64,000 nucleotides of DNA, taken from positions 1 through 64,000 of the forward strand of contig CAJVYQ010000027.1 of assembly GCA_913009825.1 (NCBI GenBank), written 5' to 3'. Shown in pieces: positions 34,614 to 37,682 of the stretch. This DNA comes from an uncultured Deferribacteres bacterium (lineage in GTDB: Bacteria; Zhuqueibacterota; JdFR-76; DREG01). The number at the start of each line of letters is the position of its first letter. The first letter of the stretch is position 1. The notes beneath the pieces were generated by a model. That model ran no database searches. It had not been told where the DNA came from and saw only the letters and a list, made by a program, of their open reading frames with translations. The position numbers and the translations under genes are program-made.

Positions 34614-34696
34614 CTCCCGCAGATTTGCCAGGGTTTACTTCTCTGAACAGGAATATCCGCATCTTGTATCAAAAATAACCTGCGGGGGAGTTTTTT
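34614..34696 (+). terminator. Probable intrinsic terminator after the ClC gene
   Basis: CTCCCGCAG (34614-34622) can pair with CTGCGGGGGAG (34680-34690) with a two-base bulge, followed by TTTTTT (34691-34696). The loop of about 57 bases is long, so strength is uncertain. Confidence 0.55.
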
Positions 34697-34808
34697 ATCA
34701 TGTAGTGTATTTTGAAAGTTATTAATACATTTTACAGGATTGATCAAAAAGTTTGGACGTTTTCTGTAGTAAATCAACAAACATATAAATAACTCAAAGA
34801 ATAGGAGC

Positions 34809-35068
34809 ATGTCAACCAAACGGTACATAATCTGTCCCCATTGTCATCAAAAAATAGAATTGCAGGCCAATCCCTACCCGATGGTCGATATCATCATCGA
34901 AGTTTTTGATGGGAAAAAGTTACCGGCATCGTTTTGATCGGGCGAAAAAATGAGCCGTTTGGCTGGGCTTATCCCCGGCAGCTTCATCGATTATGGTGAG
35001 AGCACCGAGGATGCGGCGGTGCGGGAAGCAAAAGAGAAATCAATTTGGCTGTAACGCTGAAATACCTG
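34809..35068 (+). pseudogene. NUDIX hydrolase pseudogene, 5' part
   Basis: Begins with AGGAG and ATG: MSTKRYIICPHCHQKIEL, a zinc-ribbon-like start found before some NUDIX domains, then PMVDIIIEVFDGKK. A frameshift near 34920 leads to GIVLIGRKNEPFGWA; another near 34968 leads to PGSFIDYGESTEDAAVREAKEK (NUDIX box, split between here and the next words by the same frame); a third near 35038 leads to NLAVTLKYL. The coding sense stops at 35068, where an insert begins, and resumes at 36240. At least three frameshifts show it is not functional. Confidence 0.8.
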
Positions 35069-35111
35069 TTATGCATTTAAGTGTTTTAATAATAAATAAA
35101 AGGAGTATCAT

Positions 35112-36149
35112 GTGGCCAAAATTATGATTTTTATCGATGGTACGTGGCTATATTCCAACCAAAATAATTTGTCTAAGAGATATGGGAACAATTTCCGTTT
35201 AGATTATGGAAAGTTACCCTTAGTTTTAGGTGAACAAATCTCTAAAGCATTAGGCAACAAGGAAGTTGATATTGTTCGTACACATCTTTTTGGTTCAAAT
35301 GCAGTTAATTATGACCCCCAAGATGAATATTTGGTTCGACAACGCCAAGATTTTTTCGATTTGTTGAAAGAAGAATACCATTACGAGGTTGAAGTTTATC
35401 CAATTAATTATAGAGGCAATAGATTACGAAGAAGAGACCGTGATGAAAACAATGATTTTCATCCTCAGGAAAAATGTGTTGATATAGCATTAGCAGCAAG
35501 TATGTTTTATTTTGCAGCAATTCCCTATGCTTATGATATTTGTATTGCCGTATTAGGTGATAGGGATTTTATGCCGTCACTTAAGCAAATAAGGCGTTTA
35601 GGTAAACGTGTTGCAATTGCGAGTTTAAAAGAAAGTTGTGCTAATGAATATTATGATCCCAAAGATGTTCAACGATTAAAGGATTTTGATATAATTTGGA
35701 TTGGTGAATATCTTGATAAATTAGAATTGCAAATCTCAAAAAGGCGAGTTGAATGTAAATCTGAATTTCATGAAGGTGATAGATTTGTTTATACTGATGA
35801 ATTTATAAGAAAAGGGCAAAAATATTATTGTGATAAATGTAGAGAAAAATTTAAAAAAGATAAATATGAACAGTTAAAATATATCGGGAAACCTAAGCTT
35901 GAAGAAATAGATATCGATCATCTTAATAACCGAATAGGTAAAATAAAGAAGATTTTCCCTGAGAGGGGGTTTGGATTTATCGAAGCCCAAGATGGTGATT
36001 ATTATTTTCATTACACCGATATAACCGGCGAAAAATTTTTTAAGGAAATATCAGAACAAGAAGATGTTATATTTGATGTAGTAATAGCTCCGGATAAAAA
36101 TTCAGAAACAAATAACGGAAAAGCAGTAAATATAAGATTTGATGCCTGA
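35112..36149 (+). CDS. NYN-domain (PIN-like) protein with Cys pair and C-terminal cold-shock domain
   Basis: 345 residues, AT-rich. The N-terminal 200 residues form a NYN/LabA-like nuclease fold: IMIFIDGTWLYSNQN (first Asp), QEKCVDIALAASM, and AVLGDRDFMPSLKQIRRLGKRV, which supply the expected acidic metal-binding residues. Residues about 220-255 hold cysteines (VECKSEF, YYCDKCREKF) in a possible zinc finger. Residues 275-344 are a cold-shock-like OB fold with KIKKIFPERGFGFIEAQDGDYYFHYTDI. RNA cleavage is inferred. GTG 35112 is preferred (AGGAG six bases upstream); the ATG two bases earlier is out of frame. The stop codon overlaps the attC-like site. Confidence 0.82.
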   Translation: MAKIMIFIDGTWLYSNQNNLSKRYGNNFRLDYGKLPLVLGEQISKALGNKEVDIVRTHLFGSNAVNYDPQDEYLVRQRQDFFDLLKEEYHYEVEVYPINYRGNRLRRRDRDENNDFHPQEKCVDIALAASMFYFAAIPYAYDICIAVLGDRDFMPSLKQIRRLGKRVAIASLKESCANEYYDPKDVQRLKDFDIIWIGEYLDKLELQISKRRVECKSEFHEGDRFVYTDEFIRKGQKYYCDKCREKFKKDKYEQLKYIGKPKLEEIDIDHLNNRIGKIKKIFPERGFGFIEAQDGDYYFHYTDITGEKFFKEISEQEDVIFDVVIAPDKNSETNNGKAVNIRFDA

Positions 36150-36239
36150 CAAACGGCTCAAACCGGACACGAGCACGCGGGCATGAATTAGCGATTTGAA
36201 AGTTCTCCCGGCGTGCCTGTGCCGTTTAGCCGCAGTCCG
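36144..36239 (+). other. attC-like recombination site
   Basis: GCCTGAC (36144-36150), near RYYYAAC, overlaps the ORF stop. A hairpin follows with arms 36154-36181 and 36207-36232: CGGCT/AGCCG, AAA/TTT, CGG/CCG, ACA/TGT, CACGC/GCGTG and GGG/CCC. Two unpaired C bases (36159, 36163) lie on the left arm, resembling the extrahelical bases of attC sites. The site ends in G36239, followed by TTGGGT. In the circular cassette the right core would be GTTATGC. Length of about 96 bases is in the normal attC range; the two core spacers (3 and 6 bases) are uneven. Confidence 0.62.
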
Positions 36240-36461
36240 TTGGGTGTCTATTCCAAACCGGACCGGGACCCGCGACGCTAGACCATTTCCTCGGTTTTTG
36301 TTGCCGCCGCATTCGGGAAACCCATTGCCGGGGATAATGCCAAAAATCCGGCGGTTTTTCGTCCGGAAATCCTTCCCGTAAAATTGACTTTCGATCACGG
36401 AGAAATTCTCCGGGATTATTTCAAAAAGCAGATCTTTGCAGCCCACGCAATACACAAATAA
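36240..36461 (+). pseudogene. NUDIX hydrolase pseudogene, 3' part
   Basis: Continues the gene interrupted at 35068: LGVYSKPDRDPRR, an in-frame TAG, then TISSVFVAAAFGKPIAGDNA and FRPEILPVKLTFDHGEILRD, ending at TAA 36459-36461. YS.P.RDPR..TIS.VFVA and the LTFDH..IL.DY end are typical of the C-terminal half of ADP-ribose-pyrophosphatase-like NUDIX proteins. The stop codon shows decay after, or independent of, the insertion. Confidence 0.78.
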
Positions 36462-37509: not shown

Positions 37510-37553
37510 TTTTACATTGAGCCGTGCGCAAATGAAAAGTTGATTTGCTAAGA

Positions 37554-37682
37554 CCTGAATTGAGCGATTGTAGGGCGATTCGCTGAATCGCCAGTCTGAT
37601 TTCTATGGATTTTACACTAATAAATGAAAACCCGTTTGGTATTTAAAACGAGATTATAAATGGCTGAATCGCTCGATTTAGG
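37554..37682 (+). repeat. MITE-like element family 1, short subtype, copy 4
   Basis: Termini CCTGAATTGAGCGATTG / AATCGCTCGATTTAGG. The interior differs from the long subtype and shares GTAGGGCGATTC and ACCCGTTTGGTA with 49152-49255. It ends just before the mltG coding region. Confidence 0.65.

Follow-up and report, generated by a model that had tools for sequence, protein, structure and literature searches.

A 1171-bp integron gene cassette (positions 35069..36239, on the plus strand like all features of this locus) splits a NUDIX hydrolase gene in the window, i.e., the entire 64-kb stretch of DNA analyzed here. We are highly confident that a circular cassette, carrying a gene for a protein with an NYN and a cold-shock domain (NYN-CSD), was inserted by an integron integrase (IntI) at GTTGGGT, an attG-type secondary site of the chromosome that is not part of an integron, within the NUDIX gene. 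The crossover would have fallen between G and TT, with the attC site taking part as its folded bottom strand, and the most likely enzyme is the IntI whose gene lies on contig C88 of this assembly. The event would have left a split NUDIX gene and a solitary attC site with no integrase nearby. Insertion by IntI at a secondary site had been proposed in the initial annotation, and the attC site, the exact edges, the empty site in a relative, and the integrase gene and resident attC family elsewhere in the genome, all read from sequence, argue in its favor. More interesting than this single locus is the scatter of attC sites over the genome as a whole.

The coding sense of the NUDIX gene ends at CTG (35068) and restarts at 36240 with TTGGGTGTC. 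The left junction reads ...AAATACCTG/TTATGCATTT... (35068/35069) and the right junction ...GCAGTCCG/TTGGGTGTC... (36239/36240). The insert was removed by a script, and the joined flanks (529 nt) were aligned across 35068/36240 to NUDIX genes of relatives, as the initial annotation had suggested. The alignment with locus L063 of a genome of the same family (G002) covered 333 nt at 67% identity and was gapless at the join; that with L064 of a genome of the same phylum (G014) covered 212 nt at 69% identity. L063 harbors at 2186-2725 an intact NUDIX gene of 179 aa without the insert, and hence the empty site. We consider this gene the syntenic orthologue, since the same genes follow the NUDIX gene at its 3' side in both loci, namely, a protein beginning with FTANNNGQLLDCGC, an MltG-like protein and UvrD. 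In a frameshift-aware alignment (88/150 identities), a single frame (LKYLLGVYS) spanned the join. Relative to the empty site, the insert is exact at 1171 bp, with neither duplication nor loss of target sequence in the gapless alignment, which is the pattern sought for a secondary (attG) site. The sole ambiguity of its edges is the GTT common to both junctions, and the crossover thus lies within the GTT of GTTGGGT; GTT is the place of integron recombination. At the left junction (CTG/TTATGC, 35066..35074), TTATGC continues the cassette's own R' box in the circular form (GTTATGC), and an R' identical to that of this excised form is present in the resident attC site at L145 1717-1850. Since GTTRRRY occurs 86 times in the 64-kb window, both strands counted, an insertion point on this motif is rarely expected at random. 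Two repeats were observed in the vicinity. Just upstream of the NUDIX gene, 34640-34790 is a degraded copy of a repeat with approximately 25 copies in the genome, the better ones having inverted ends with AACTTTGGAAGTTT (MITE-like), and at 37553-37682 there is a 130-bp repeat with copies at 95 to 97% identity on contigs C11, C79 and C7.

Both halves of the NUDIX pseudogene align to the intact L063 gene and are damaged away from the join. The 5' half (34808..35068) contains four frameshifts, near 34829, 34917, 34967 and 35040, and the 3' half (36240..36425) a stop codon at 36279. There are consequently 5 disabling changes in 150 NUDIX codons versus 0 in 345 cassette codons. This bears out the initial annotation as far as the decayed host gene and the intact cassette ORF are concerned. 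It does not establish the order of events that the annotation had assumed, with decay following insertion: the 5 versus 0 changes imply that either the NUDIX gene was dead before the insertion, as may have been the case, or the cassette ORF is under selection. The cassette ORF is co-oriented with the NUDIX gene; in our model, the NUDIX promoter would now drive its expression and selection would continue to maintain it.

The cassette terminates at its right end in an attC site (36144..36245), recognized in situ by a covariance model (R1) and by folds. It consists of R'' (GCCTGAC, 36144-36150), an L''/L' hairpin and R' (GTTGGGT, 36239-36245), of which the latter is formed together with the target and is the exact end of the site. 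R1 was built from 15 attC sites, 8 from plasmid integrons and 7 from arrays in other genomes, with the window excluded and the alignment registered by hand. It matched 36144-36245 over its full length (model positions 1-72 of 72) with 37.0 bits and an E value of 1.2e-6, the sole match at E<10 in the 64 kb. With filters switched off over 6 kb, a shorter piece was obtained (36155-36238, 13.8 bits), the full-length match being that of the default pipeline. A model search of this kind had been recommended in the initial annotation, which had read the terminal hairpin as that of an integron cassette, with extrahelical C bases in its left arm. We found one extrahelical C (position 16) and one A (position 24) in that arm, as in the attC site of L104, and R'' and R' pair at 7/7 positions, 3 of them as G-T. 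The R''/R' pairing, the L''/L' pairing and the left-arm extrahelical bases that mark a cassette attC are therefore all present. In the genome-wide R1 scan, the window site was not among the matches listed, probably because scoring covered 150 of 943 candidates, and the genome counts are lower bounds. The loop of the window attC aligned to that of a resident array attC (C18:71368-71470) with a score of 37, which none of 2000 dinucleotide shuffles reached (maximum 31), and to other attC sites with scores of 8 to 22. A second model (R2), built from 11 resident attC sites, does not call the window attC, which consequently differs from the commonest resident type, so that the cassette may have originated outside the resident array. 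An Rfam search of the window returned no matches. A simple R''/R' fold finder was dropped in favor of covariance models because it gave many chance matches on both strands. Aligning the attC sites with MAFFT alone ignored their structure, hence the registration by hand.

The body of the cassette has a G+C content of 33%, compared with 44% in the flanks. Its left edge (G/TTATGC) is followed by a 43-nt leader with a GGAG ribosome site and by one intact ORF (35112..36149, 345 aa, GTG start), in agreement with the AT-rich single ORF close to the left edge noted in the initial annotation. The near-RYYYAAC box that the annotation had placed at the ORF stop is GCCTGAC, i.e., R'', with one mismatch. 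A single ORF starting near the left edge and stopping next to attC, within edges at G/TT of a GTT core common to both junctions, is the layout of an integron cassette. The encoded protein contains an NYN (PIN-like) nuclease domain (PF01936, E value of 2.2e-10), a Cys/His motif (C215, H220, C240 and C243, read off the homologue alignment) and a cold-shock domain (PF00313, E value of 2.4e-8). Residues D9, N16, D124, D150 and D152 are invariant across three homologues (55 to 59% identical), and we take the acidic residues among them to be the catalytic ones expected of a PIN/NYN nuclease. The product is probably an RNA-cutting enzyme. Its NYN part matches the PADLOC candidate-defense model HEC-09 (E value of 5.8e-7), and an anti-phage role is possible. 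The nearest relatives, at 55 to 59% identity, are encoded between ordinary genes in Desulfobacterales, whereas homologues in the relatives searched from its own phylum reach at most approximately 41% identity over the NYN part, which suggests that the gene arrived horizontally. Copies of the protein were not found in the plasmids or viral contigs searched, nor was a close copy of the cassette found in an array, and no attC site was detected near the homologues in Desulfobacterales (L115-L117) or in family f16 (L024-L029).

The genome, a draft assembly of 123 contigs, was searched for intI and attC sites, as had also been proposed initially. An intact integron integrase gene was found on contig C88 (TIGR02249, 471 bits versus a cut-off of 265) and none in the 64-kb window; by gene content, the C88 gene would be the integrase acting in trans in an attG-type insertion. 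An attC site is located upstream of this gene, and the sequence following it is presumably the start of a group II intron. Contig C18 contains an array of attC repeats of 128 to 134 nt. Two contigs begin with near-identical truncated 5' ends of an integron integrase gene (L019 2-270 and L020 2-270). The attC sites at L017 13274-13391 and from L200 5917 onward are directly followed by the same sequence, which resembles a group II intron at its 5' end, and both run towards contig ends.

Model R2 detected at least approximately 43 attC sites at E<1e-3 on 24 contigs of this genome, with the best 150 of >4000 candidates scored. Among 17 sites inspected at full length, the majority had recognizable R'' and R' boxes and a few were degenerate. 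In 415 kb of other DNA, the sole clear matches to R2 were true class 1 attC sites, and among 14 relatives, 10 had no sites and 4 had between 2 and 6 each. Approximately 10 clear single attC sites, the window included, lie among chromosomal genes (inspected in stretches of ~10 kb), and ~5 further ones are weaker or degenerate. Scattered loci of the resident type include L129-L131, L150, L152 and L183-L202, and several of these cassettes hold toxin-antitoxin genes. At C1:181499, a single attC site accompanies a HigB-like/HigA-like gene pair that lies upstream of an rlmB-like gene; at C43:33158, the cargo is a gene for a ParE-type toxin, flanked by mutS2 and dnaG; and at C33:5568, it is an antitoxin/PIN-like pair in front of fabH. 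These genes were named from their translations, and Pfam backs only the two toxins. At the first two of these loci, the inserted DNA is absent from relatives. The mutS2-dnaG spacing is 1.68 kb in this genome versus 16 nt in G004 and ~74 nt in G001, and the region upstream of rlmB measures 2.1 to 2.9 kb versus ~276 nt in G006 and ~241 nt in G002, although both inserts include other DNA too and their edges are not base-exact, unlike those in the window. A homologue (69 to 70%) of the HigBA-like cassette genes is found elsewhere in G002 (L209, C6:61169-62539), without a detectable attC site. According to the ORF tables, 9 of the 10 strong single sites, the window included, have the same orientation as the upstream gene, which hints at an orientation bias. 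We advance, tentatively and with the balance tipped slightly against it, the broader reading that in this lineage cassettes regularly escape from the integron. Dozens of them, many single (toxin-antitoxin pairs, a nuclease, non-coding ones), would have been dispersed across the chromosome by the resident IntI, mostly co-oriented with the upstream gene, and off-platform insertion would be a main way in which cassettes become fixed and expressed, not a rare accident.

The small clusters of 2 to 4 attC sites found on C37, C53, C36 and C21 would fit a different history of the window locus, in which several cassettes or a mobile integron were inserted and all but one cassette was later lost. The window contains one attC site and no intI, and nothing is left over at its junctions when they are compared with the empty site, which makes this history improbable. 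The absence of a target duplication and the one terminal hairpin are features shared with a transposon or IS200/IS605-like hairpin-ended element. Such elements are recognized by a transposase or paired terminal hairpins, but the insert encodes no transposase, the NYN-CSD gene being its only ORF, the left end has no hairpin, and the right hairpin has the full attC architecture and was matched by an independent model; we regard this origin as highly implausible. Equally negligible is the idea that the NYN gene is native and that the NUDIX matches on its two sides are fortuitous or reflect another arrangement. In its favor, Desulfobacterales carry NYN-CSD genes on the chromosome and weakly related ones exist in the phylum, but the intact syntenic NUDIX gene of G002 without the insert refutes it, one reading frame runs across the join, and the relatives searched hold no homologue above ~41% identity over the NYN part. 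The initial annotation had named two outcomes as contrary to a cassette, namely, the lack of an attC match together with a native NYN gene, and orthologues with differently separated NUDIX halves; both were looked for and neither was found.

Insertion of a single cassette by IntI at a secondary site thus remains our reading of the locus, and the genome around it is a natural example of cassettes leaking from an array into the chromosome. The spread of cassettes off integrons in nature has so far been judged mostly by laboratory assays and plasmid cases. Here, a site seen both occupied and, in its orthologue, empty is combined with a resident integrase and ~40 related attC sites in a single genome from an uncultured lineage, so that it becomes countable how often off-platform insertions happen in nature, where they land and what becomes of them. 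In the part of the literature covered, we met no description of a genome with so many scattered, often single attC sites.

The view of the initial annotation that cassettes outside integrons are rarely documented does not hold, given plasmid cases, isolated single attC sites and work on attG sites. The window locus belongs to a known phenomenon, since both the insertion of cassettes at attG sites and solitary attC sites (SALINs) have already been described. Loot et al. (2024, Nat Microbiol 9:228) reportedly demonstrated by experiment in E. coli that cassettes are inserted into the genome at attG sites. The two cases share a cassette in a bacterial genome at a site that is neither attI nor attC, and they differ in that the former is an E. 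coli experiment, whereas the insertion in the window arose naturally and has an orthologue with the site empty. SALIN and CALIN are IntegronFinder terms for attC sites without a nearby integrase, SALIN denoting a single site (PMC12690207), and CALINs have been found at several loci in Xanthomonas (PMC12444791). The window attC likewise has no integrase nearby, but a CALIN needs at least 2 neighboring attC sites, whereas the window has one in 64 kb, backed by an empty site. Single sites are commonly omitted, the default threshold being two (PMC12690207, PMC12444791), and pipelines that discard them overlook real insertions. Secondary-site cases in RSF1010 and Acinetobacter are cited in PMC10127599. 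A close parallel is the dfrA14 cassette that lies within strA in plasmids (PMC11213556, citing Ojo et al. 2002). As in the window, one complete cassette, attC included, interrupts a host gene at a secondary site outside an integron; that case concerns a plasmid, a resistance gene and a mobile-integron setting, whereas the insertion described here lies in the genome of an uncultured lineage, with an NYN-CSD cargo and a resident attC family.
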